From NCBI RefSeq assembly GCF_003762835.1, contig NZ_RJWA01000002.1:248001-312000 (forward strand): a DNA stretch of 64,000 nucleotides, given 5' to 3'. Under the pieces are notes generated by a model, which saw nothing but the letters and a program-made list of their open reading frames with translations, made no database searches and was not told the origin of the DNA. Positions 5,903 to 32,543 of this stretch are shown here, in pieces. How positions within the stretch are numbered: position 1 is the first letter of the stretch; the number at the start of each line of letters is the position of its first letter. The position numbers and the translations under genes are program-made. Source of the DNA: Micromonospora sp. HM5-17 (GTDB lineage Bacteria > Actinomycetota > Actinomycetes > Mycobacteriales > Micromonosporaceae).

Positions 5903-6030
5903 CCGGCCCGCCGGTTTCCGGCCCCGCCGCGACGTTCGACCGCGACCCCGGCCGGCGGATTTCGGAGTGACCCAGCCGACCGAGGCGGTACCGCCCTCGT
6001 CGGGCCGTCGGACCCGACCGGTACCCTCGG

Positions 6031-7548
6031 GTGGTGTCTGCCACGTCCTCCCCGTCTCCGGCCGCCGGCCGTCGGGTCGCCCTGCTCACCCTGGGCTGTG
6101 CCCGCAACGAGGTCGACTCGGAGGAGCTGGCGGCCCGGCTGCACGCCGACGGCTGGCAGGTGAGCACCGACGGCGAGGGTGCCGACGTGGTGCTGGTCAA
6201 CACCTGCGGCTTCGTCGAGAAGGCGAAGCAGGACTCGATCCAGACCCTGCTGGCCGCCGCCGACACCGGTGCCAGGGTGGTGGCGGCCGGCTGCATGGCC
6301 GAGCGGTACGGTCGTGAGCTGGCCGACAGCCTGCCCGAGGCCCATGCGGTGCTCGGCTTCGACGACTACCCGGAGATCTCCGCCCGCCTGGCGGCGGTCC
6401 TGGACGGGGAGCGCCTCCCCGCACACACCCCGCGGGACCGGCGGAAGCTGCTTCCGGTGACCCCGATAGCCCGGCAGCGCGGCGACGTGGTGGTCCCGGG
6501 GCACGGCGGCCAGCCCGCCGCCCGCCCGGCCGGGGACACCCTGGTCGCCGACGAGCGCACCCCGGCCCACCTGCGTCCGGTGCTGCGCCGCCGGCTCGAC
6601 TCCGGCCCGGTCGCCTCGCTCAAGCTGGCCAGCGGCTGCGACCGGCGCTGCGCGTTCTGCGCCATCCCCGCCTTCCGGGGAGCGTTCGTCTCCCGGCCCC
6701 CGGACGAGCTGTTGGCCGAGGCCGAGTGGCTGGCCCGTTCGGGCGTCCGCGAGCTGGTCCTGGTGAGCGAGAACTCCACGTCGTACGGGAAGGACCTCGG
6801 CGATCCCCGGCTGCTGGAGAAGCTGCTGCCGCAGCTCGCCGCGATCGACGGCATCGTGCGGGTCCGGGTCAGCTACCTGCAGCCGGCCGAGACGCGGCCG
6901 GGGCTGGTGGAGGTGATCACCACCACGCCGGGCGTGGCGCCGTACTTCGACCTGTCCTTCCAGCACGCCAGCGAGCCGGTGCTGCGCCGGATGCGACGGT
7001 TCGGGTCGACCGCCCGTTTCCTCGACCTTCTGGCGGAGGTGCGTAAGCTGGCGCCGGAGGCCGGGGCGCGGAGCAACTTCATCGTCGGCTTCCCCGGCGA
7101 GACGCGGGGCGACGTCGAGGAACTGGTCCGGTTCCTCACCGCGGCCCGGCTCGACGCCGTCGGTGTCTTCGACTACAGCGACGAGGACGGGACCGAGGCC
7201 GCCGGACTGCCGGGCAAGGTGCGGGCGGCGACGATCAAGCGCCGCTACGACCGGATCACGGCGCTCGCTGACGAACTCTGCGCCCAGCGCGCCGAGGAGC
7301 GGATCGGCTCGACGGTCGAGGTGCTAATCGACTCGGTCGACGGCGGCGTGGTGGAGGGCCGGGCGGCCCACCAGGCACCGGAGGTGGACGGGTCCACCAC
7401 GCTGGTGGCACCCGAGGCGGGTGGGGTCGACCTGGCGGCGCTGCGCCCGGGCGACCTGGTCCGGGCGACCGTGACCGGCACCGAGGGCGTGGATCTGGTC
7501 GCCGTGCCGGAGGAGATGGTCTCGGCGGCTCCCCGGGGGATCGGGTGA
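6031..7548 (+). CDS. rimO: Ribosomal protein S12 methylthiotransferase RimO
   Basis: Radical-SAM MiaB/RimO family enzyme that adds a methylthio group to a conserved Asp of ribosomal protein S12; 505 residues. The N-terminal cluster domain has Cys in [17 protein letters not shown] and [10 protein letters not shown]. The radical-SAM triad CDRRCAFC is at ~203-210, and a C-terminal TRAM domain follows ([10 protein letters not shown] onward). RimO is favoured over MiaB by [11 protein letters not shown] and AIPAFRG. An Arg/Pro-rich insert of ~50 residues sits between the cluster and radical-SAM domains. The start is one of two adjacent GTGs (6031/6034). It is followed at 40-80 bp by pgsA. Confidence 0.93.
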
Positions 7549-7629
7549 GGCCGCCGCGCCCGTACCGCGGACCCGCCGGCCCGGGCCGTGCCGACCGTGG
7601 GACGTCGTCGAGTGCGGTGGGGTGACGCC

Positions 7630-8274
7630 GTGACCGAGGCGGCGGAGCCGGTGTCGAGCGGGGCGAACGCGCCGGTGGCGGGTACGGGTGGCGGTCGGGC
7701 GGCGCCGACGGGCCGGGTCGGGCCGGTCCCGGTCGTCAATGCGGCAAACGCGCTGACCGCGCTCCGGCTCGCCCTGGTTCCGGTCTTCGTCGGGTTGGTG
7801 GTCGTCTCCGAGCTGGCCCGGCCGGGCTGGCGGGTGGCCGCCTGCCTGATCTTCGCCTTGGCGTCCGTGACCGACCTGGTCGACGGCTGGATCGCTCGCC
7901 GCTGGGCGTTGGTGACGTCGTTCGGCAAGGTCGCCGACCCGATCGCCGACAAGGCGCTGACCGGCACCGCGCTGGTCCTGCTGTCGTGGTACGACCGGAT
8001 CTCCTGGTGGGTCACGGTGCTGATCCTGGCCCGCGAGTTCGGGGTGACGCTGATCAGGTTCTGGGTGATCCGGTACGGCGTGATCGCGGCCAGCCGGGGC
8101 GGCAAGGCCAAGACGGCGGTCCAGATCCTGGCGATCGTCTGGTACCTCTGGCCCGTGCCGGCGGGCGCGGCGTGGGTCGGCCCGTGGATCCTGGGCGTCG
8201 CCGTCGTGGTGACGGTGCTGACCGGCCTGGACTACGTGGTCCGGGCGTTGCGGCTGCGACGCCCGGTCCGGTGA
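7630..8274 (+). CDS. pgsA: CDP-diacylglycerol-glycerol-3-phosphate 3-phosphatidyltransferase
   Basis: Membrane enzyme of phosphatidylglycerol synthesis: CDP-diacylglycerol plus glycerol-3-phosphate gives phosphatidylglycerophosphate. The CDP-alcohol phosphotransferase signature is complete in DLVDGWIARR...GKVADPIADK, with the four Asp residues in place. Multiple hydrophobic segments run from ALTALRLALVPVFVGLVVV to the C-terminus. GTG 7630 after a GGTGGGG site gives 214 residues; GTG 7588 is an in-frame alternative adding 14 Arg-rich residues. It is co-oriented with rimO and cinA. Confidence 0.92.
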   Translation: MTEAAEPVSSGANAPVAGTGGGRAAPTGRVGPVPVVNAANALTALRLALVPVFVGLVVVSELARPGWRVAACLIFALASVTDLVDGWIARRWALVTSFGKVADPIADKALTGTALVLLSWYDRISWWVTVLILAREFGVTLIRFWVIRYGVIAASRGGKAKTAVQILAIVWYLWPVPAGAAWVGPWILGVAVVVTVLTGLDYVVRALRLRRPVR

Positions 8275-8362
8275 CGTCCCCGCCCGTCCGGTACGGTCGC
8301 TGCGTCCGGTTGTTCCGGGCGCGGTGTTCCGGGCGCGGACCCGGCCGACGGGAGGGAGTGGC

Positions 8363-8881
8363 ATGGACGCGGACGAGCGGGCGGCTGACGGCGCCGCCGC
8401 GGCCGTGGTGCACGCCCTGGCGGACCGGGGAGCGAGCCTCGCCGTGGTGGAGTCGCTCACCGGCGGACTGCTGGCGGCCACGATCGTCGACGTCGCCGGG
8501 GCGAGCCGGGTGTTCCGGGGTGGCCTGGTGACGTACGCCACCGAGGCGAAGGCGTCGCTGGCCGGAGTCCCGGCACCCCTGCTCGCCGCGCGCGGCGCGG
8601 TGGACCCGGAGGTGGCGGTCGCGCTCGCCGAGGGTGGCCGGCAGCGGTGCGGCGCCGACTGGTGCCTGGCGACCACCGGGGTGGCCGGCCCGGAGCCGCA
8701 GGACGGCAAGCCGGTCGGGCTGGTCTTCGTGGCGGCGACGGGCCCCTCCGGCACCGAGGTCCGACGGCTGGACCTCGACGGCAACCGGCGGCAGATCCGG
8801 GTCGGCGCGGTCCGGGCCGCCCTGCGGCTGCTCGCCGACCGGCTGCACGCCGAGGCACCGGCCCCCGTCACCGGGGACTGA
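8363..8881 (+). CDS. cinA: Nicotinamide-nucleotide amidase (CinA C-terminal domain)
   Basis: A 172-residue stand-alone CinA C-terminal domain (PncC type) that deamidates nicotinamide mononucleotide to nicotinate mononucleotide in NAD salvage. ATG 8363 follows a near-ideal GGAGGGAG. Family motifs are VVESLTGGLLAATIVDVAGASRVFRGGLVTYATEAK, with the catalytic Ser/Lys region, and ATTGVAGPEPQDGKPVGLVF. The N-terminal COG1058 half of long CinA proteins is absent, as is common in actinobacteria. It sits between pgsA and clgR. Confidence 0.93.
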   Translation: MDADERAADGAAAAVVHALADRGASLAVVESLTGGLLAATIVDVAGASRVFRGGLVTYATEAKASLAGVPAPLLAARGAVDPEVAVALAEGGRQRCGADWCLATTGVAGPEPQDGKPVGLVFVAATGPSGTEVRRLDLDGNRRQIRVGAVRAALRLLADRLHAEAPAPVTGD

Positions 8882-9073
8882 CCGGCGGTCGCCGCGCGGA
8901 TTTCCCGGCCGGGCCGGGATGTCGTGAGCGCTCGCAGCGGGTACGGTTGCGGGAAGGCTCGGGAAGCCGACGCCGTGGGTCGCCACCGCTGTGGTCACCG
9001 CCGCGCGGTGTGTCGACGCCGACGGCGCCGGTCCGACGTCCGGGGAAGGTTGTCCCGCGACACGGGAGGTGTG

Positions 9074-9769
9074 ATGGTCCTGCTACGCCGGGTCATCGGT
9101 GATGCGCTGCGCGCGCGCCGGCAGGGACAGCATCGGACCCTGCGCGAGGTCTCCTCCGCTGCGAACGTGAGTTTGGGCTACCTCTCCGAGATCGAGCGGG
9201 GGCAGAAGGAGGCGTCCAGCGAGCTGCTCGCCGCGATCTGCGACGCCCTCGGCGCCCGCCTCTCCGAACTGCTCCGGGACGTCAGCGAGACGGTCGAGAT
9301 CGCTGAGCGGCTTCCCGACGTACTGGTGCCATCCCCCAAGGAGCGACCGGGGCCGGAGCAGGCGCCGGCGGCCCGTCCCGAGTCGGGGACGCCGGCCCGC
9401 CGGCAGGGCGCGGCGAAGAACGCCGAGACCGCGGTGCCCAAGCCGGCGACGCGGCACTCCGCAAAGCCGGTCCGGCCGGCGTCCGACGGCAAGCCGGCGG
9501 CCGTGCCGCGCCGCGGCGAGTCCGGCCCGCGGGCGGCGTTGGCCGACCGGATGGTCGCCGCCCGTCCGGGGCGGTCCGCCGTACCCGGGCGCCCCCGTCG
9601 GGGGGTCCGACCGCTGCCCGGCGACACGGTGCGGCAGGTCGCGACCGACGGTACGGTCTCGGTGACCGTCCGGCAGGACTCGCCGCTGAAGGCGACCCTC
9701 CGGGCCACCCGCCGGATCCACCCGCCCGCGGGCGCCAGCCCGGAGCGCGACGTCGTCTGCGTCGCCTGA
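9074..9769 (+). CDS. clgR: ClgR-type XRE transcriptional activator
   Basis: Cro/C1 helix-turn-helix regulator of the ClgR family, which in actinobacteria activates clp protease genes and the psp membrane-stress genes. The HTH is in residues ~5-60: [39 protein letters not shown] long, Ala/Pro/Arg-rich tail without predicted fold follows, making the protein 231 residues, much longer than a minimal ClgR; the tail is the odd part. ATG 9074 follows GGGAGG; GTG 9071 is next to it. It lies immediately upstream of pspA and pspM, as in mycobacteria, supporting autoregulated control of all three. A CGCTCGCAGCG element at 8929-8939 partly resembles a ClgR site. Confidence 0.9.
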
Positions 9770-10056
9770 GTCGGGCCGCGGTCCCGACCCATCCTTGCGC
9801 CGGGGCGTCCGGCCGTCCGGTTCGTCCTGGCCTGCCAACCGCTGTCCGGGGTCCGGCCCGACCAGGGTCGACGGTGTAGCCACCCGGACGACCGCGCGTT
9901 ACGGTGGGGCCGGAGCGGCATGTCCGGTGAACATCCCCCGAGGTCGTACGCCGGGGTGGCGCGGGACTGGGACGATGGAGATCGTGTCGCGTCGGTGCTC
10001 CGGCGGCCCGGCCGGCACGGCAGCGGAGCGATCGACACTGAGGGGATACCGGGGAG

Positions 10057-10920
10057 ATGGCTAACCCGTTCGTCAAGGGCTGGCGCTACCTGATGGCGCT
10101 CTTTGGCGCCAAGATCGATGAGTACGCCGACCCCAAGGTGCAGATCCAGCAGGCGATCGAGGAGGCGCAGCGCCAACACCAGGCGTTGGTCCAGCAGGCC
10201 GCGGCGGTGATCGGCAACCAGCGCCAGCTCGAGATGCGGCTATCCCGGCAGATGTCCGAGGTCGAGCGTCTCCAGGGGATGGCCCGGCAGGCCCTGGTCC
10301 TCGCCGACCGGGCCCGGGCCAGCGGCGACGAGGCCGAGGCCGCCCGCTACGAGCAGACCGCCCAGACCGTGGCCACCCAGCTCGTCGCCGCCGAGCAGGC
10401 GGCCGAGGATCTCAAGTCGCTGCACGACCAGGCGATCAACGCGGCGACGCAGGCCCGTCGGGCGGTCGAGAACAACAAGATGCTCCTGGAGCAGAAGCTG
10501 GCCGAGCGGACCAAGCTGCTCAGCCAGCTCGAACAGGCGAAGATGCAGGAGAGCATCGCCCGCTCCCTGGAGTCGATGTCCGCGCTCGCCGCCCCGGGTG
10601 GCACCCCCTCGCTCGACGAGGTGCGCGACCGGATCGAGCGTCGGTACGCCACCGCGATGGGCCGGGCCGAGCTGGCCAGCAACTCGATCGAGGGCCGGAT
10701 GCTGGAACTTCAGAAGTCCACTCTCGACCTGGCGGGCGCCTCCCGGCTGGAGCAGATTCGGGCCAGCATGGCCGGTGAGAAGCTCGGCGCCACGCCGGCC
10801 ACCTCTGCCGTGGAGCCGGCGGCACCGGCGGCGGATCCGGCCGGTGTGGCCCGACTGGACGAGATCCGCGCCAGCCTGGCCCGGGACAGGCAGGCCGACG
10901 GCAACACCGCGGCCGGCTGA
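10057..10920 (+). CDS. pspA: Phage shock protein A (PspA/IM30)
   Basis: Peripheral inner-membrane protein of 287 residues that oligomerises on stressed membranes and helps maintain the proton motive force. It is almost wholly alpha-helical coiled coil, starting [27 protein letters not shown], the amphipathic membrane-binding helix typical of the family, with helices to ~residue 235. A C-terminal Ala/Pro linker ends in a short helix ([11 protein letters not shown]) repeating an earlier [12 protein letters not shown] 10057 follows GGGGAG. It lies 287 bp after clgR and 23 bp before pspM. Confidence 0.95.
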
Positions 10921-10943
10921 GCCGCCAGCACGGGAGAGGAGAC

Positions 10944-11729
10944 GTGATGGCGGATCGGCGTACCCGACACCTGCGCCGGCTGCGGCGCCTGCGCCGGGCG
11001 GTCCGCCGGTGGAGCGTCCTGGCCGGGGGCCTCACCGGGGCGGCCGCGGTGCTCATCCCGTACCAGGGTCTCGGGCTGCCGGACGCGGTCTGGACCGCGG
11101 CGGCCGGTGGGTCCGTGACGCTCGCACTCTGGCGCTGGTCCGACCTGCGGGCGCTCGCGGCCCAGCCGATCCCGCCGGCACCCGAGCCGATCACCGCCGA
11201 GCAGGCCCGGGCCCGGCTGGTCGCCGCCGTGGAGCGGTTGCCCGCCGGCCGACAGGCGCTGGCGGAGGTACGCCGGCAACGCGCCCGGCTGGCCCTGCGC
11301 GGTACGGCCGCCGCGGCGGCGTGGGGCCGGCTGGACCGGGCGTCGGCCACCATGGCCGGGCTCGCCGCCCGGCTGAGCGGGCCCGCCGAGTCGGCCGCGC
11401 TGGAGGCGGCGGTGGCCGAACGGGCGTTGCGGGATCTGGCGGACCGGGCGGCGAGCGTGGAGCGCGCGCTGCACCTGGCTCCCGAGGACGCCCGCGCCGA
11501 GCTGGAATCCGCGCACCGAACCCTGCTGGGGCAGCTCGAGAGCGGGGTCGTTGCCTACGAACGGCTGGTGGCGGCGGCCGCCGGCTACGTCGCCGAGGAC
11601 GGCCGACAGGATCACGGCGACGGTGCGGTCTCGCGGCTCGCCGAGGCGACCGACCTGCTGCGGGGCGTGGCGACCGGCCTGGCGGAGCTGCGCCGGGCGA
11701 CTCGCCCGCCGGCCGACGCCACGCGGTAG
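10944..11729 (+). CDS. pspM: Phage-shock envelope-stress membrane protein PspM
   Basis: A 261-residue protein with a very basic N-terminus (RHLRRLRRLRRAVRRW), two membrane helices at ~25-45 and ~48-65, and a long cytosolic coiled-coil region. This layout matches the PspM (Rv2743c-like) partner of PspA in actinobacteria, where it links PspA to the membrane. It starts at GTG 10944 or, equally well placed after GGAGAGGAG, ATG 10947. The clgR-pspA-pspM order is the main support. The next gene is convergent 38 bp away, so the mycobacterial fourth gene (pspN) is not here. Confidence 0.82.
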   Translation: MMADRRTRHLRRLRRLRRAVRRWSVLAGGLTGAAAVLIPYQGLGLPDAVWTAAAGGSVTLALWRWSDLRALAAQPIPPAPEPITAEQARARLVAAVERLPAGRQALAEVRRQRARLALRGTAAAAAWGRLDRASATMAGLAARLSGPAESAALEAAVAERALRDLADRAASVERALHLAPEDARAELESAHRTLLGQLESGVVAYERLVAAAAGYVAEDGRQDHGDGAVSRLAEATDLLRGVATGLAELRRATRPPADATR

Positions 11730-11767
11730 CGGGCCGGCGACGGGAGGGATGGCCGCGTGTCGCCAGC

Positions 11768-14700
11768 TCAGGCCGGGGTCCGGATCACGATCGGGGCGCT
11801 GAACCGGGACGTCCCGGCCGGGTTGGTGGCCTGGATCCGGTAGTGGTAGACGGTGTCGCGGGCCAGGTCGACGTCGAGGTGGACCCGGACGGTGCCGGGA
11901 AGGGTCGCGGTGGTCAGCCCTCGGCCGAAGTCCGGGCTGGTGGCGCGGTGGAGCGTGAAGGCGCCGACCCGGCTGGTCACCGGCATGGACCAGCGCAGCC
12001 GCACGGTGACTCCCGGGCCCGGGCCGGCGGGCTCGACGGTCGCGGTGACCTCGGTCGGGGTGTCCGGCGGCGCCGGGGTGACCACGGTCGCCACGGTGGA
12101 CCAGGGCGACGAGGCGCCGAGATAGCTGGTCCGTACCCGGTAGTAGTAGGTGGTGTCGGCGGCGACCGGGACGTCCGGGTAGCTGGTGGTGACCGGGATC
12201 GTGGTGGTGACCAGCCCGCTGGTGAAGGTCGGGTTGGTGGCCCGCTGGAGGTCCACGCTGGTGGCGAAGGAGCGGTTCACCCAGGCCCGGTTGACCCGCA
12301 GCGGAGGGTCGGCGGCGACGGTCGCGACCAGGCCGGTGGGGGGTAGGAGCTGAACCGCGCAACTCGCCCCGGCGGAGAACGCCGAGTGCGCCACGCCGTT
12401 CTCCGCCCGGACCCGGTAGTGGTAGGTGACCCCGGGGGTGACGGTGGAGTCGGTGTACCGGTTCTCGGCGGCCGGGACGACGAAGGTCGTCACGTCCCGG
12501 GAGAAGGCGGCGTCGGTGGCCCGTTGTACCAGGTTGCGGGTGGCGGGCGGGCCGGCGACACGGCCGGGGGCGGCACCCGCGGCGCCGGCCGGGCCACCCG
12601 CCTCCGGGACGCGCGTCGCGGTGTCGGCCGGGGCGTTGTTGGTCCAGGCGAGCACGATCGCCGGCAGCACGGTGGCGGAGCCCGGTGCGGGCCGGGCGGC
12701 GAGCCCGGTCGGCGCGGCCGGGGAGCAGCGGAGTACGACGGGCCGGGTCATCTGCTGGTCGGCATGGCCGAGCTGCTGACAGTGCCAGGCGTACTCCCAG
12801 CCGAAGTTGTACGGGCGGTTCGTCACCGACGCCGGCCCGCCGGTGGCGGGATCGACCTGGGTGTAGCCGTCGGCGGTCCCCGCCGGCCGGGTCGGGTCGA
12901 GCAGCCGCACGCTGTCCCCGACGGTGAACGGCAGCGGCTCGGGTCGGAGCGGTCGTACCGCCACGACCGTCTCCTCGCCGGGGTTGACCCGGATCGTCTC
13001 CTTCCAGCCGAGCTCGTTGGGGGCCGGGGGCCGGACGGTCCCGTCCCGACCGATCCGGTTCACCAGCTGGACGGTGCCGTGCTGGAGGTGCAGGGCGTGG
13101 GTTTCCGTCCCGTGGTGGGTGACCCGCCACAGCTGGGTGCCGTCCCCGGGTGACCCGACCGGGGTGTCGGGGTCGGACGGCAGCAGCACCTCGGTCGGCG
13201 GGTCGACTCGGGTCAACGGGATCGTGGTTTGCACCAGGCCGTCGGTGCGGGCCAGGTCGGTGCCGAGCAGGCAGGTCTGTCTGCCGTACTCGGGGTCGAA
13301 CTCGGTGACGACCGCCTTCGCGCGCAGCGGCAGCGTCACCGGACCGGAGCCGCCGTACGGGGTGAAGGTCAGTGAGGTTGCCCCGGCCGCCGCGTACCCG
13401 GGCTCGGTGGTGTGGGTGCCGAAGGCGGCGTCGTACGCGGGCTGCGGCACGATCGGCGGCGGCTGGCTGCGTCCGTACGCCTCGGGCAGCGCCGCCGTCA
13501 GCCGGTCCAGGTCGAACGGCCGCGCCGCCGGACCCACCACCTGGATCTGCATCAGCGTCCGGGTGTTCGGGCCGTATCCGGGGCGGGTGCTCGGCGCCCC
13601 GCCGGAGCTGGTCTGGTCCGGGTTGCCGGTGTAGTGGTCGTTGCGCGGGTCGAAGCCGGGCAGCGGCGCCGGACAGTCGTTGTAGAGGATCAGGTTCGAG
13701 CCGGGGGGTACGGCGGAGAAGTCGACGATGACGTCGGCGCGTTCGCCCGGGGCCAGCAGCAGGGCGTGGTCGGTGACGTCCACCACCGTCGCGTCCTCGT
13801 GGTGGTCCCGGTAGGTGATCGGTTGACTGGGGATGACCGCCACCGCCGGCAGGAGCCCGCCCTCGGAGCCGATCTGGATCCAGTCCGGACCGGCGGCGGC
13901 GGGGTCCGGCACCCCGCCGTCCCGCCCGTCCGTCGGCCAGCGGGGCGGGAAGTGCGGGTTGGGCCGGGCCGCCACCATCGGCACCTCGCCGGCGTCGCCG
14001 TCCGCGAGGGTGCCGTCCGGGTGCCACATCGGGGCGTGGGAGGCCGCGTAGTAGAGCTGGAGGTTCAGGCTGCGGTCGGTGCAGGCGTTGAGGATCCGGA
14101 ACCGGTACGCCGCCGCGCGCAACCGCAGGTACGGGTAGGCGACCCCGTTGACCAGCGGGGTGTCCAGGAACGCGTCCGGTACCGCGGACGGGGTGGGGGT
14201 GCCGGGCTGGACCGGCGGCTCCCACGGCCGGCTCTGCGGGTCGTGGTGCGGGTTCGGCGCCGGCCCGCGGGTGATCCCGGTGACCGGCGGCCAGAACCAG
14301 GGCCCGTAGTCCCAGCGTCCCATCGGGTTTCTCCCCGACTCGTTGTACGGGTTCTGTCGGGGCATGTAGACGTGTGGGAACCAGAGGCTGCCTCGACCTC
14401 CCCAGTTGGCGACGTCCCAGGTCGGGTCCTGGGCGGCGAGCTGGGCGTCGTCCGGCACGAAGGTCCGGTCCTGCAGCACCAGGAGGATCTCCTCGGCCGG
14501 GACGATCCCGTCGGCGACGAGCTGCCGCTCCACCGGGTCGTCCAGTCGGTAGAGCCCGATTTGTCCGGAGTAGACGGTCAGCCGGGCGATCCCCTCGCTC
14601 TGGTCGTGGTACCAGAGCAGCCGGGCGCTCTGCCGGTTGGGGTAGTAGGCGGTGACCGCGCCGGCACCCGGGGCGGGCATGTCCGGCACGGCGGCGTACC

Positions 14701-15685
14701 CGGCTCCGCGCGGGTAGGGGGTCGGCTCGCCGGCCGGGGTGAACCACTGGTTCGGGCCGCCGTTGCTGATCCACGGGGCGTCGCCGCCGTGCAGGTGCAC
14801 GGAGCACCGGTTCTGCGGGTACCGTTCCAGGCCGCCCTGGGGGCCCGGACCCGCCCCCCGGACCGTCGGGTCCACCGGTAGGAAGAGGTCGCCGGCGGAG
14901 CCGGTCGGCAGCTGGTTGACGTACTTGACCCGTACCGGACGGTCCCGTTGGGCGATGATCAGCGGCCCGAGGTGGTACGGCCGGGCCGACGGCGCCACCG
15001 TGTTGTGCCCGGTGGCGTCGGTGCCGTTGTTGAGCTGCCTGTACCCGCGCAACCGGGTCGGCGGCAGGTCCGGATGCAGACGTTGGGTGTACTCCTGCAC
15101 CCCGATCTCGTAGTAGTCGCAGCCGGGGTAGGTGGTGGTGTCGGGAACCGCCACCGGGATCAGGGCGCCCAGCTCGGTCGGGTCGCGTCCGACCCGGGGG
15201 AGCGCGGTGACGAACTTCCGGATGCCGGTGCCCGGGAGCACCGCTCCGGTCGCGTCCAGCACGGGCAGCGGACTGTACGCGACGTTCGGGACGAACCCGA
15301 AGTAGTCCGGTGGGGCGGTGGGGTCGAGGACCGGTACGGCCGGCGGCGGGTCACCGACCCGGGCCGCCGGTACCCGTACCGGCCCATCGCCGGGCCGGTA
15401 CGGGACCGATCCCTCGGTCCGCTGACCCGGGACCGCGCGGTTTCGGGGTTGCGACCCCGGTTCCGGTCGGCCGTCAGCCCGCTGGTTCGTCAGGCGCCGT
15501 GCCGGGGCGCGCGCCTCTCCGTGCCGTTCGTCCGCACCACGCCGCTCCTCGGATCGCTGTTCCTCGGATCGTCGCTGGTCGGCACGCTGTTCCGCGGACC
15601 GCTGCCGGTGGGACTCGGCCCGCCGCTGCCTGACATCTGCGACGCGGGCGGCCCAGCGTGTGGCGAACCTCCTGAACATGATCAT
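11768..15685 (-). CDS. Giant multicopper-oxidase-like protein with C-terminal fibronectin type III repeats
   Basis: A 1305-residue protein; ATG 15685 follows GGGGAGG. Residues 1-75 are a highly charged Arg/Glu/Gln region with no signal peptide or membrane helix. Cupredoxin-type copper motifs then occur in CotA-like order: HLHGG (~296), WYHDQSEGIARL (~355), HALHLQHG (~863) and WHCQQLGHADQQM (~967). From ~990 to the end there are three fibronectin III-like repeats (TYHYRVRAENG, TYYYRVRTSY, VYHYRIQATNP). In three of four copper motifs the His expected to bind a type 3 copper is Gln, while the blue-copper Cys/His/Met set is kept. Oxidase activity is therefore doubtful; electron transfer, metal binding or structure are alternatives. 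It is convergent with pspM. Confidence 0.85.
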   Translation of the reverse strand: MIMFRRFATRWAARVADVRQRRAESHRQRSAEQRADQRRSEEQRSEERRGADERHGEARAPARRLTNQRADGRPEPGSQPRNRAVPGQRTEGSVPYRPGDGPVRVPAARVGDPPPAVPVLDPTAPPDYFGFVPNVAYSPLPVLDATGAVLPGTGIRKFVTALPRVGRDPTELGALIPVAVPDTTTYPGCDYYEIGVQEYTQRLHPDLPPTRLRGYRQLNNGTDATGHNTVAPSARPYHLGPLIIAQRDRPVRVKYVNQLPTGSAGDLFLPVDPTVRGAGPGPQGGLERYPQNRCSVHLHGGDAPWISNGGPNQWFTPAGEPTPYPRGAGYAAVPDMPAPGAGAVTAYYPNRQSARLLWYHDQSEGIARLTVYSGQIGLYRLDDPVERQLVADGIVPAEEILLVLQDRTFVPDDAQLAAQDPTWDVANWGGRGSLWFPHVYMPRQNPYNESGRNPMGRWDYGPWFWPPVTGITRGPAPNPHHDPQSRPWEPPVQPGTPTPSAVPDAFLDTPLVNGVAYPYLRLRAAAYRFRILNACTDRSLNLQLYYAASHAPMWHPDGTLADGDAGEVPMVAARPNPHFPPRWPTDGRDGGVPDPAAAGPDWIQIGSEGGLLPAVAVIPSQPITYRDHHEDATVVDVTDHALLLAPGERADVIVDFSAVPPGSNLILYNDCPAPLPGFDPRNDHYTGNPDQTSSGGAPSTRPGYGPNTRTLMQIQVVGPAARPFDLDRLTAALPEAYGRSQPPPIVPQPAYDAAFGTHTTEPGYAAAGATSLTFTPYGGSGPVTLPLRAKAVVTEFDPEYGRQTCLLGTDLARTDGLVQTTIPLTRVDPPTEVLLPSDPDTPVGSPGDGTQLWRVTHHGTETHALHLQHGTVQLVNRIGRDGTVRPPAPNELGWKETIRVNPGEETVVAVRPLRPEPLPFTVGDSVRLLDPTRPAGTADGYTQVDPATGGPASVTNRPYNFGWEYAWHCQQLGHADQQMTRPVVLRCSPAAPTGLAARPAPGSATVLPAIVLAWTNNAPADTATRVPEAGGPAGAAGAAPGRVAGPPATRNLVQRATDAAFSRDVTTFVVPAAENRYTDSTVTPGVTYHYRVRAENGVAHSAFSAGASCAVQLLPPTGLVATVAADPPLRVNRAWVNRSFATSVDLQRATNPTFTSGLVTTTIPVTTSYPDVPVAADTTYYYRVRTSYLGASSPWSTVATVVTPAPPDTPTEVTATVEPAGPGPGVTVRLRWSMPVTSRVGAFTLHRATSPDFGRGLTTATLPGTVRVHLDVDLARDTVYHYRIQATNPAGTSRFSAPIVIRTPA

Positions 15686-16081: not shown

Positions 16082-16918
16082 CTAGCCCGGACCGGGCTGG
16101 CAGACCGGGCACCAGTAGGTGATCCGTTCACCCTGCTCGCGCCTGCGGATCGTGGCCCCACATCGGTGGCAGGGCTCGGCGCGCCGGCCGTACACGTACG
16201 TGGTCCGGCCCCGGTGCAACGAGCCGGTCGTGCTCTGGGTCCACCGCCCGCGGTTGGCCATCAGCAACCGGTGGGCGAGCGCGACCAGGCCGGCCAGATC
16301 CGGTACGTCCCGGACCGGTGTCCAGGGCGAGACCCCGCGCAGGAAGAGCACCTCTGACGCGTAGAGGGTGCCGATGCCGGCGAGATTGCGCTGGTCGAGC
16401 AGTGCCTCGCCGATGCTCCGGGTCGGCTGGGCGGCGAGTCGGCGGACCGCCTCGGCCGGGTCCCAGTCCGGGCCGAGCAGGTCCGGGCCCAGGTGTCCGA
16501 CCAGTCTCTCCTCCTCCGCGGTCGGCAGCAGGGCGAGTTCGTGCAGGTGGTAGCCGACCGCCACGGCGTCCGCGGTACGCAGGACCGCCCGGATCGTGTG
16601 CGCCGGCCGCGCCGCCCACCGCTCGCCCGGGGCGTACACCCGCCAGGCGCCGTCCATCCGCAGGTGCGAGTGCAGGGTCAGCCGGCGGCTGCCGTGGCGG
16701 GCCGTACCCTCGGCTCCGGGTTGGGGCTGGGCCGGGACCGGGACGCGCAGGCGCAGCAGCAGGTGCTTGCCGCGGGAGCGAGACTCCAGCACGGTGGCGC
16801 CGGTGAGATCGGCGGTGGCCAGCTGCGGCACCCGGAAGTCGGTGGCGGTCAGTCGGCCACCGGCCAGCGCGCGGTGCAGCACGCGGGCCGTGTTCCAGAC
16901 GGTGTCGCCTTCGGGCAC
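16082..16918 (-). CDS. nei: Endonuclease VIII-type DNA glycosylase (Fpg/Nei family)
   Basis: Bifunctional glycosylase/AP lyase for oxidised bases, 278 residues from GTG 16918 after GGAGGAGG. The second residue Pro and following Glu (PEGDTVWNTARVLHRAL) form the catalytic N-terminus once Met is removed; PEGDT is Nei-type rather than Fpg-type (PELPE). RSRGKHLLLR supplies the conserved Lys. The H2TH helix region (RSIGEALLDQRNLAGIGTLYASE) and a zinc finger (CHRCGATIRRREQGERITYWCPVC) close the protein. It is complete, with no visible defects. Confidence 0.93.
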   Translation of the reverse strand: MPEGDTVWNTARVLHRALAGGRLTATDFRVPQLATADLTGATVLESRSRGKHLLLRLRVPVPAQPQPGAEGTARHGSRRLTLHSHLRMDGAWRVYAPGERWAARPAHTIRAVLRTADAVAVGYHLHELALLPTAEEERLVGHLGPDLLGPDWDPAEAVRRLAAQPTRSIGEALLDQRNLAGIGTLYASEVLFLRGVSPWTPVRDVPDLAGLVALAHRLLMANRGRWTQSTTGSLHRGRTTYVYGRRAEPCHRCGATIRRREQGERITYWCPVCQPGPG

Positions 16919-17104
16919 CCGTCCATCCTCCTCCCGACGCTCCGGCGGCCGGCCAGCCAACCGCCGGAGGTCACCGGAACGACGGGTTCGACGGGATGCC
17001 GGGAGCGACTCCGTCGACGTGTGCGACGCGCCCCGGCCTGCCCGAGGCGGTCCGACCCGCCGCCGGTCCCCGGTGGCCCGGTCCCGGCGGTGGGTCGGGG
17101 CGGT

Positions 17105-30518: not shown

Positions 30519-32543
30519 TCAGTGACGGTGACCCGAGCGTTTGCCGTGCGAGTCGCCGAATGGTGTGGTGACGCCGTCGTAGCGAAGCCGCAACATCATT
30601 CCCTGGTGTGCGTGCGGCAGATTGTGGCAGTGGTTCATCCAGATCCCGGGATTTGTGGCCTTGAATGCCACCTCCCACACCTGTCCCGGGCGCACGTCGA
30701 ACGTGTCGACCCACAGTGGACTGCCGGACGACGGCTTGCCGTCGCGGGACAGGACCAGCACGGAATGGCCGTGCAGGTGCCAGGGATGCGTTTCCAGGCT
30801 CCGGTTGACCACCGTGAACCGGACGACGTCGCCCTCGGCGACGAGTTGGTCCGGGACGGACGGATGACCGCGACCGTTGACGGTCTGCGCGTACGCCGGC
30901 CGCCCGTCGACCATGGCCACGCCCCGGTCGAGCACGATCGTGAAGTGCCGGTCGGCCCGGTCGGCGTCGAACGGAATCACCGCCGGTGTGCCGTACCGCA
31001 GCAGGTCGAGTTCCGGCCAGCCCGAAATGTCGGTGCCGGCGGGGTCATCGCCCCCGCCGGTTCCGTCCGGACGCAGCCGTACCCCGCCATTCGGATCGTC
31101 GTCGAGCACGAGCGCCATCGGGGCGTCCGGCATGACGAAGACCAGGTCGTACCGTCCACCCGCGGCCAGGTGCAGCCCCACTCGGCTCACCTCGCCGGGC
31201 TGGTGAAGGTCCCGACCGTCGACGGCCGCCACCCGGAACGGCGTGCCGGCCAGGGCGACCCGGTGCGGGTCCGAGTCGGTGTTGATCAACCGCAGCCGTA
31301 CGGGCGTACCGGCCGGCACGGCGTGCTCGGCCCGTCCGTCCCGGTCGGCGAGCACCACGGTGCCGTCGAAGGTGTGCACCGGCAGCGTCAGGTCGAGCTG
31401 CGCCGCCGGGGCGGCGCCGGCCACCGGCCACGCCTCGCGTGGGGTCACGACGAGGGCACCGTACAGCCCCTTGCGCACCCCGCGGTGGGACGCCTGGTGG
31501 GTGTGGTACCAGTAGGTCCCGACCTGGTCGGCGCGGAAGCGGTAGCGAAACGTCTCGCCGGGTGCCACCACGTGCTGCGTCACGCCCGGGGCGCCGTCCT
31601 CACCGCACGGCACGTCGTAACCGTGCCAGTGCAGGGTCACCCCGTCCGGGATGTCGACGTTGTGGAGCGTCACCTCGATCAGATCACCCTCGGTGGCGGT
31701 GATCGAAGGGCCCGGTACCTGGCCGTCGTAGGTCCACGCCTCGACCTCCTGGCCGGACGGGAGCCGGACGGTGGCCGTCCGCGCGCGGAGGTCGTACCGG
31801 CGCCTGGCGCCGCCGGGCGCCGGTTCGGCGGCCCCCCGCAGGTCGGCCACGGACACCGCCGACCGGGATCGGGACGGGTCCGGCGGGCCGCCTCCGGCGA
31901 CGACGGACTCGCCCGGCCGGAACACCAGGCCGACGCCGGCACCTCCCATGCCCACCACGACCGCTCCCCCGGCCAGGCTGACGAACCGGCGGCGCGAGAC
32001 CGCCGGTCCGCGGTACGCCGGCGGTGCCGGCGTCGGCTCGGCCCGGGCGTCGTCGTCGGCGGTCGCGGGGGACCCGTCCGCCGCCCCGGCGATGTCCGCG
32101 CCCCGCGTCGCGACCACCCGCGCGGTGAGCAGCGCACCGGCGCCGACCACCGAGCCGGCGAGCAGCGCGGTGCTCCAGGTCAGGGGGTACCCGGCCAGGA
32201 AGGAGACCAGCAGACCGACCAACCCGGCGTACCCGGTGGTGAGCAGCCAGACGACGCTGCCGGTCGGCGTTGCCGCGGGTGACGCCGACCCCGTGGCGCG
32301 CAGCTGCCGTCCGGCGACCGACACGGCGATCGTTCCGGCGAGGCCGAGCATCGGCAGCCCGAGCAGCACCTTCTCCTGCACGAACCACCAGCCGTGGCTG
32401 GCGAGCAGCACCACCGTCGTCACCCGGGCGAGGGTCACCAGGACTGCCGCCACCAGGAGGCGGAACGCGAGCCGGGCGCGCCGGACCGCGGCGGCGAACC
32501 CGGCGCCGAATCCGGATCGGCGCGTCGGTGATGAGTGCCGCAC
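30519..32543 (-). CDS. Membrane-anchored multicopper oxidase (laccase/nitrite-reductase-like)
   Basis: A 674-residue protein with four N-terminal membrane helices (~25-47, 59-78, 97-118, 124-144), then VSRRRFVSLAGG at ~182 preceding a fifth hydrophobic segment that resembles a Tat signal. The exposed cupredoxin part contains a full copper set: HWHGYD, WYHTHQAS, HPWHLHGHS and WMNHCHNLPHAHQGMML. All type 1, 2 and 3 ligands appear intact, unlike the larger homologue at 11768-15685. The assigned start is GTG 32543 without a clear ribosome site; it overlaps by 13 bases the divergent kinase gene, so the true 5' end may be altered. Confidence 0.9.
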   Translation of the reverse strand: MRHSSPTRRSGFGAGFAAAVRRARLAFRLLVAAVLVTLARVTTVVLLASHGWWFVQEKVLLGLPMLGLAGTIAVSVAGRQLRATGSASPAATPTGSVVWLLTTGYAGLVGLLVSFLAGYPLTWSTALLAGSVVGAGALLTARVVATRGADIAGAADGSPATADDDARAEPTPAPPAYRGPAVSRRRFVSLAGGAVVVGMGGAGVGLVFRPGESVVAGGGPPDPSRSRSAVSVADLRGAAEPAPGGARRRYDLRARTATVRLPSGQEVEAWTYDGQVPGPSITATEGDLIEVTLHNVDIPDGVTLHWHGYDVPCGEDGAPGVTQHVVAPGETFRYRFRADQVGTYWYHTHQASHRGVRKGLYGALVVTPREAWPVAGAAPAAQLDLTLPVHTFDGTVVLADRDGRAEHAVPAGTPVRLRLINTDSDPHRVALAGTPFRVAAVDGRDLHQPGEVSRVGLHLAAGGRYDLVFVMPDAPMALVLDDDPNGGVRLRPDGTGGGDDPAGTDISGWPELDLLRYGTPAVIPFDADRADRHFTIVLDRGVAMVDGRPAYAQTVNGRGHPSVPDQLVAEGDVVRFTVVNRSLETHPWHLHGHSVLVLSRDGKPSSGSPLWVDTFDVRPGQVWEVAFKATNPGIWMNHCHNLPHAHQGMMLRLRYDGVTTPFGDSHGKRSGHRH

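Follow-up and report, generated by a model that had tools for sequence, protein, structure and literature searches.

The window analysed here is a 64,000-nucleotide stretch of the Micromonospora sp. HM5-17 genome (contig NZ_RJWA01000002.1, positions 248,001 to 312,000), and its minus strand carries a gene, P0001, that encodes a giant relative of the multicopper oxidases (MCOs) in which three copper ligands have been replaced. Orthologues at the same genomic locus, beside the nei, Rv2743c and pspA genes, have lost copper ligands in 48 of 48 cases, and all 12 pairs tested show purifying selection on the MCO domain, in agreement with an earlier reading of the DNA letters (hereafter, the sequence-only reading) that had seen a repurposed MCO. 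We consider it reasonably probable that the P0001 protein descends from a giant exported MCO resembling OmpB and MofA, and that it is now cytosolic and non-catalytic and probably serves as a scaffold.

Copper ligands of the P0001 protein

Residue equivalences in CotA numbering were derived from a phmmer alignment with Bacillus subtilis CotA, in which all four copper motifs of the P0001 protein are in register (Table 1). The protein lacks the complete set of 12 ligands (eight trinuclear histidines and four type-1 (T1) residues) and keeps nine of them. Three of the six type-3 (T3) histidines are glutamine, at H155, H424 and H493, precisely the equivalents that the sequence-only reading had named. 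That reading had also described the HLHGG motif and the blue-copper Cys-His-Met as retained, and this holds true: the T1 residues H863, C969, H974 and M979 and the type-2 (T2) pair H297 and H866 are intact, with H491, C492, H497 and M502 kept within WHCQQLGHADQQM. Neither of the two acidic residues connected with proton transfer in CotA is present, because D116 and E498 correspond to N308 and A975. E498 has been described as the sole proton-active group near the trinuclear centre of CotA and D116 as an acidic residue near T2, and the same account states that E498 equivalents are not present in all MCOs (PMC2944330). All three glutamines are encoded by CAG, and the ligand-intact relative L042 has CAC at each of these positions.

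Given the established mechanism, the loss of three T3 ligands and both acids would make four-electron O2 reduction very unlikely. Judged by its residues, the trinuclear centre is unlikely to act as an O2-reducing site, and we infer that the protein has no oxidase activity. All residues of the blue T1 site are in place, although the site may be occupied by copper or empty.

Ligand loss among orthologues

A first scan of genome contigs used peptide patterns that contained glutamine letters and retained the 80 best of 239 related loci, which biases its frequencies, and 200 Micromonosporaceae genomes (one genome per species; E <= 1e-100) were therefore searched with a profile. The profile search returned 55 members, full-length or almost so, from 51 of the 200 genomes and 8 of the 44 genera. 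All 55 were fetched and aligned; 48 have at least one of nei, Rv2743c and pspA beside them, and seven do not, the latter label referring to a flank of 1.5–2 kilobases (kb), the same length that revealed the neighbours of the 48. The ligand-intact sister paralogues of the locus copies, which lie elsewhere in the genome, are termed class B, and their off-locus label is backed by four loci, namely L053 and, with flanks of about 6 kb in both directions, L010, L011 and L042. The first set and the 200-genome set overlap in species and are not independent, and species counts do not represent independent events.

Each of the 48 locus copies has lost between one and 10 of the 12 ligands, whereas the seven non-locus copies have lost none (Fisher p 5e-9, uncorrected for relatedness). 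Among the locus copies, H105 (46/48), H153 (47/48) and M502 (41/48) are kept, and H493 (3/48), H155 (5/48), C492 (6/48) and H424 (9/48) are mostly gone. H419, C492 and H497 are jointly retained in only three copies, including the P0001 protein, and the other 45 are without a complete T1 site. Position 155 is asparagine in 36 of the 48, the H424 position is occupied by D, E, G, H, A or Q, and the H491 and H493 positions show six or more states each. The glutamine triad, which the sequence-only reading suggested looking for in homologues, is thus not conserved as such at the locus; read from the aligned residues, it is one stage in a varied series of losses.

The first-set alignment comprises 84 rows, including the query, split-gene pieces and one tandem copy. 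All twelve ligands are present in 27 rows and eleven, with phenylalanine at the axial methionine, in nine more; the intact rows come from other phyla and from L010, L011 and L042. At least one window neighbour was found beside the degenerate copy in all 43 loci of this set that have one, and none was found at L010, L011, L042 and L053. E498 is lost in 44 of 44 first-set locus copies and kept in all 36 others aligned there (two gaps), and D116 is lost in 43 of the 44 and kept in 38 of 38 others. All four genomes in which the profile search returned a class B copy (G101, G114, G149 and G162) also carry a degenerate locus copy. Histidines restored at the substituted columns, which the sequence-only reading would have taken as a sign of sequence error, occur only in paralogues at other loci and in other phyla, so the substitutions represent a real difference and not an error in the window gene.

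The first-scan relatives, among the best 80 of 239, comprise many Micromonosporaceae and, at 42–51% identity, members from Neobacillus, Geothrix, Chloroflexota, Verrucomicrobiota, a Geobacteraceae genome and other sources. A plasmid search returned only distant MCOs, in nine records. The nine relatives with phenylalanine for the axial T1 methionine and the other ligands kept (L062, L065, L073, L076, L078, L079, L083, L084 and L086) include Geothrix and the Geobacteraceae genome. Phenylalanine at this position goes with a higher T1 potential, which suggests such a potential in these nine proteins. The class B gene of L053 (Micromonospora sp. NBS 11-29, 5905-9407) is split into two frames in the assembly. 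An Armatimonadetes metagenome-assembled genome (MAG; L068) carries tandem giant MCOs of the family at 5911-10086 and 10407-14996, both with all ligands. A 325-residue open reading frame (ORF) in another genome of the same bacterial family (L097, genome G007) consists of the fibronectin (FN3) part only and is about 47% identical to the tail of the P0001 protein; none of the locus neighbours lies in the stretch examined, and this ORF may be a detached FN3 offshoot.

Selection on the MCO domain

Columns with at least 97% identity in 35 relatives outside the locus were defined as conserved, which gave 198 non-ligand and 11 ligand columns. The 40 other locus copies keep 6563 of 7920 conserved non-ligand residues (83%) but only 159 of 440 ligand residues (36%), and the loss has therefore struck the copper sites harder than the fold. 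The P0001 protein alone keeps 173 of 198 non-ligand and 8 of 11 ligand columns, which is not a significant difference (Fisher p 0.17), so the signal of ligand loss comes from the orthologues. Crude Nei–Gojobori ratios of nonsynonymous to synonymous substitution rates (dN/dS) for the MCO domain are 0.16-0.32 in 12 locus pairs; two pairs of intact class B copies give 0.26 and 0.33. The N-terminal segment gives 0.22-1.07 in the 12 locus pairs. No internal stop codon was found in any of the 55 profile-search matches.

Stages and order of loss

The window genus, represented by the window genome and six others, is separate from the Micromonospora/Salinispora/Verrucosispora branch of the tree. Within it, H493Q occurs in seven of seven genomes, H155Q in six and H424Q in two; E498 is lost in all seven and D116 in five. 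T1 changes comprise H419Q in three of the seven and H419E with C492S in one. The changes range from H493Q and E498A only (L092), through the same pair with H155Q (L091), to H155Q, H424Q, H493Q, D116N and E498A in the P0001 protein. L007, L008 and L089 carry H155Q, H493Q, D116N, E498A and the T1 change H419Q, and L094 carries H155Q, H419E, H424Q, C492S, H493Q, D116N and E498A. Three genomes of one other genus (L090, L125 and L127) show another loss route, with H491Q, C492G, M502L and D116N.

In a tree built without the ligand and acid columns, the Micromonosporaceae copies (20 rows) form one clade (100/100), in which the locus clade has class B (L010, L011 and L042) as its sister group (100/99). 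The locus clade consists of the window genus (100/100) and a group that unites L090 with Micromonospora, Salinispora and Verrucosispora (92/93). On this tree, each of H493, E498 and C492 needs at least two changes between kept and lost, which implies parallel losses or regain in the line of L090; parallel loss is the simpler of the two. Ligand losses at the locus have probably been piecemeal and parallel, and the aligned residues indicate that lineages differ in whether a T3 histidine or the T1 cysteine was lost first. A clade of the query with L007 and L008, which would give H155Q and D116N a single origin, is separated in the best tree and is not rejected by the approximately unbiased test (p 0.117). 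Any order of loss within the window genus is therefore tentative.

Export signal and location

The sequence-only reading had seen no export signal, and none was found in the first 119 residues of the P0001 protein, where the most hydrophobic 16-mer has a mean Kyte-Doolittle value of 0.36. All 48 locus copies begin with M..F[RK]; the mean hydrophobicity of the highest-scoring 14-mer that follows ranges from -0.31 to 1.41 and so stays under the threshold of 1.6. VPxxR precedes the MCO domain in 43 of 44 first-set locus copies. Outside the Micromonosporaceae, a strongly hydrophobic N-terminal segment is present in 30 of 34 scored rows; of the remaining four, L065 begins at a contig end, the domain of L069 is preceded by just 22 residues, L066 is barely under the threshold and L081 has no hydrophobic segment in the scored stretch. 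Of three distant intact copies from the Micromonosporaceae, two (L149 and L151) show a signal-like segment, and the third (L150) allowed no judgement.

Class B proteins start near MSDE, MSEE or MPDE and have no hydrophobic segment after that methionine. The higher hydrophobicity of L110 and L115 arises from an open frame upstream of the start methionine. Because intact class B copies are also without a signal, the export signal was apparently lost before copper. Scarce copper in the cytosol may then have relaxed selection on the ligands, and we infer a cytosolic location for the P0001 protein.

Domain organization and genomic context

The ORF has an ATG start and 1305 codons and coincides exactly with 11768-15685 on the minus strand. 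Pfam Cu-oxidase_2 scores 23.6 bits against a cut-off of 20.4, and CotA of Bacillus is the best solved relative by sequence (phmmer E 1.9e-32). The AlphaFold model that had been proposed as a check shows a CotA-like MCO fold with three cupredoxin domains; over residues 110-1305, it has a mean predicted local distance difference test score (pLDDT) of 88.5 and a predicted template modelling score (pTM) of 0.82. VIA-align places it on the CotA entries with Z 31.9-32.4 and a root-mean-square deviation of 1.9-2.4 over 474-491 residues. The fibronectin repeats of the sequence-only reading are borne out by a single Pfam fn3 match above cut-off, by the match of residues 1113-1303 to a two-domain PDB FN3 entry and by a third beta domain ahead of these in the model.

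Table 1. Features of P0001 and its conserved neighbours in window coordinates (ligands in CotA numbering)
Feature	Residues	Coordinates	Strand	Description or evidence
P0001, whole gene	1305 in total	11768..15685	-	N-terminal linker, CotA-like MCO domain, three FN3 domains; ORF list, alignment, model
N-terminal MIMFRRFA	1-8	15662..15685	-	
VPAAR motif	105-109	15359..15373	-	Between N-terminal segment and MCO domain
MCO domain	~154-988	12722..15226	-	Three-cupredoxin, CotA-like; AlphaFold model, VIA-align with CotA
HLHGG	297-301	14783..14797	-	H105 (T2) and H107 (T3) kept; CotA also HLHGG
N308	308	14762..14764	-	Equivalent of CotA D116 (acidic, close to T2); D to N
WYHDQ	358-362	14600..14614	-	CotA WYHDH; H153 kept, H155 to Gln (Q362, CAG)
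THALHLQ	862-868	13082..13102	-	CotA THPIHLH; T1 H419 and T2 H422 kept, H424 to Gln (Q868, CAG)
WHCQQLGHADQQM	967-979	12749..12787	-	CotA WHCHILEHEDYDM; H493 to Gln (Q970, CAG), E498 to Ala (A975)
FN3-like beta domain 1	~993-1109	12359..12709	-	Model; profile match to neogenin/titin FN3 arrays
FN3 domain 2	~1113-1204	12074..12349	-	Two-domain PDB match, profile match, model
FN3 domain 3	~1206-1303	11777..12070	-	Pfam fn3, 27.1 bits; PDB match
Rv2743c-family gene		10944..11729	+	Convergent conserved neighbour, defines locus
PspA/IM30 gene		10057..10920	+	Conserved neighbour
Formamidopyrimidine-DNA glycosylase (nei-like) gene		16082..16960	-	Conserved neighbour, opposite side

The genes around P0001 were considered as a guide to an operon-based function and rejected, as nei, Rv2743c, pspA, a helix-turn-helix gene in the clgR position and miaB are convergent or housekeeping and offer no partner. 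The neighbours of class B copies (HAD hydrolase, CysS, ABC ATPase and a stress-regulator type) were scanned and gave no functional hint. The window holds a second, ordinary-looking MCO of 674 residues at 30519-32543 on the minus strand (Cu-oxidase_2, 122 bits; Cu-oxidase_3, 121 bits), and contig C23 of the same genome has a pair of matches similar to those of this second MCO.

Discussion

What might a giant MCO do without its oxygen-reducing site? An ancestral giant MCO with FN3 domains was probably inherited vertically in the Micromonosporaceae lineage and apparently lost its export signal in a first step; in a second step, at the nei/Rv2743c/pspA locus, the copper ligands would have gone one after another, probably in several lines in parallel. 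Its present role is most likely non-enzymatic, with the rigid MCO core, three FN3 domains for binding and an N-terminal segment for targeting or tethering. Such a protein could act as a scaffold in the cytosol, in cell architecture or on the inner face of the envelope, as proposed for the copper-free SufI/FtsP. A more specific scenario, which we regard as tentative, is that an exported oxidase was retargeted to the cytosol, where copper is scarce, and that its copper sites were then stripped repeatedly and in varied order, leaving a copper-free architectural protein beside pspA and Rv2743c.

The closest solved relative, CotA, is the spore-coat laccase of Bacillus and likewise has no signal peptide. 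A spore-coat role for the P0001 protein, by comparison with CotA, is a mere conjecture for which the analysis turned up nothing in favour and nothing against. The P0001 protein resembles CotA (PDB 1gsk) in fold and motif order (Z 32.0, 37% identity over 483 structurally aligned residues), but CotA has 513 residues in 1gsk, all 12 ligands and both E498 and D116, whereas the P0001 protein has nine ligands, neither acid, long insertions and three FN3 domains. MofA of Leptothrix (1661 residues) and OmpB of Geobacter sulfurreducens are described as large MCOs with motifs A and B followed by C and D, and FN3 has been reported for OmpB (PMC5566968, PMC3618234). By these published descriptions, the P0001 protein is similar in exceeding 1000 residues, in carrying motifs A, B, C and D in order and in having FN3; it differs in that OmpB and MofA are described as exported and involved in metal redox, whereas the P0001 protein carries no signal and its trinuclear site is broken. 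Ligand-intact relatives at 44–50% identity, mostly with signal peptides, occur in Geobacteraceae, Geothrix, Neobacillus and Chloroflexota, and the Geobacteraceae member L083 belongs to the family at 46% identity. No mofB-like isomerase, mofC-like cytochrome or SCO1 chaperone was found among the window neighbours nei, Rv2743c and pspA. In a deltaproteobacterial MAG, an FKBP-type isomerase (L048, 10199-10888) directly follows a giant MCO, as mofB lies beside mofA.

SufI retains two of the 12 ligands and showed no copper in the crystal, and its authors favour a scaffold role at the division septum (PMC2661564). SufI/FtsP is thus an MCO fold without copper function; the P0001 protein resembles it in fold, in the loss of ligands and in the scaffold role proposed, and its structural matches include SufI (Z 26.7). 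However, SufI is short and Tat-exported, whereas the window lineage groups with the giant MCOs and shows intermediates. The FtsP equivalog model NF008135 gives the P0001 protein 35 bits, far below its cut-off of 581.

Several observations weigh against a scaffold descended in this way. The P0001 protein keeps a complete T1 site, which a purely structural use would not require, and FN3 domains are usually extracellular. A model built from 26 copper-free relatives only has a pLDDT of 46 in the MCO domain and a pTM of 0.28, with the FN3 part better, so that the fold is only presumed to persist in the most degenerate copies. L090, L125 and L127 keep H493 and E498 and follow their other route instead. 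Furthermore, intact Neobacillus/Bacillus and Geothrix/Acidobacteria pairs (n=3) are more constrained, with dN/dS of 0.08-0.09; relative to the Neobacillus and Geothrix pairs, constraint on the MCO domain at the locus is relaxed but clearly present, and it is similar to that in the two intact class B pairs.

The retained T1 site is also the basis of an alternative reading. The sequence-only reading offered a structural role and a single-copper electron carrier side by side, and the former fits better. A carrier would shuttle one electron through T1 without O2 reduction, consistent with the four T1 residues kept in the P0001 protein and likewise in L091 and L092. However, the T1 set survives in too few locus copies (3/48) for T1 copper to be needed in a role shared across the locus, same-genus proteins have altered it (L007, L008, L089 and L094), no electron-transfer partner gene adjoins, and a carrier of 1305 residues would be unusual. 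Electron transfer is thus unlikely overall; it is possible for the window copy alone but cannot be the shared role. Altered catalysis, in which the residual pocket would act on a substrate with another metal or fewer coppers, is improbable. The T2 pair and three T3 histidines remain in the P0001 protein, glutamine is able to ligate metals, and the near-invariance of H153 and H105 and the frequent asparagine at 155 make the pocket partly conserved, but its remaining positions (H424, H491 and H493) vary widely.

Could the gene simply be a dead oxidase that is being lost? The free variation of ligands among relatives, the lack of a match at the search threshold in 149 of the 200 genomes and the weakly constrained N-terminal segment would be in line with neutral decay, but the uninterrupted reading frames, the low MCO-domain dN/dS and the retained conserved non-ligand residues disfavour general decay and leave it quite improbable. 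A regulatory partnership, with the copper-free copy binding or templating an active class B paralogue, would suit the four class B genomes, all of which have both forms; it is highly improbable, since the window genome has a single such copy and, of the 48 genomes that carry a locus copy, 44 contribute no class B member to the 55. The chance that a sequencing or assembly error masks a normal oxidase is practically negligible. Each CAC-to-CAG change is one base from histidine, but identical H155 and H493 changes recur in independent genomes of the window genus, H424Q is found in one more, and the acids are lost there as well; sequence error was therefore rejected.

No copper-losing giant MCO of the Micromonosporaceae was found in search listings of the open-access literature, which omit most subscription papers. 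Copper-free MCO relatives such as SufI/FtsP are already known, but as finished products. The locus described here preserves a graded, probably parallel series in which as few as one and as many as nearly all of the ligands are gone, and some of these genomes also carry an intact sister paralogue. The plain label 'multicopper oxidase' would be misleading for the genes at this locus, and the series allows the order of cofactor-site loss to be tested, together with whether loss of the export signal precedes it.

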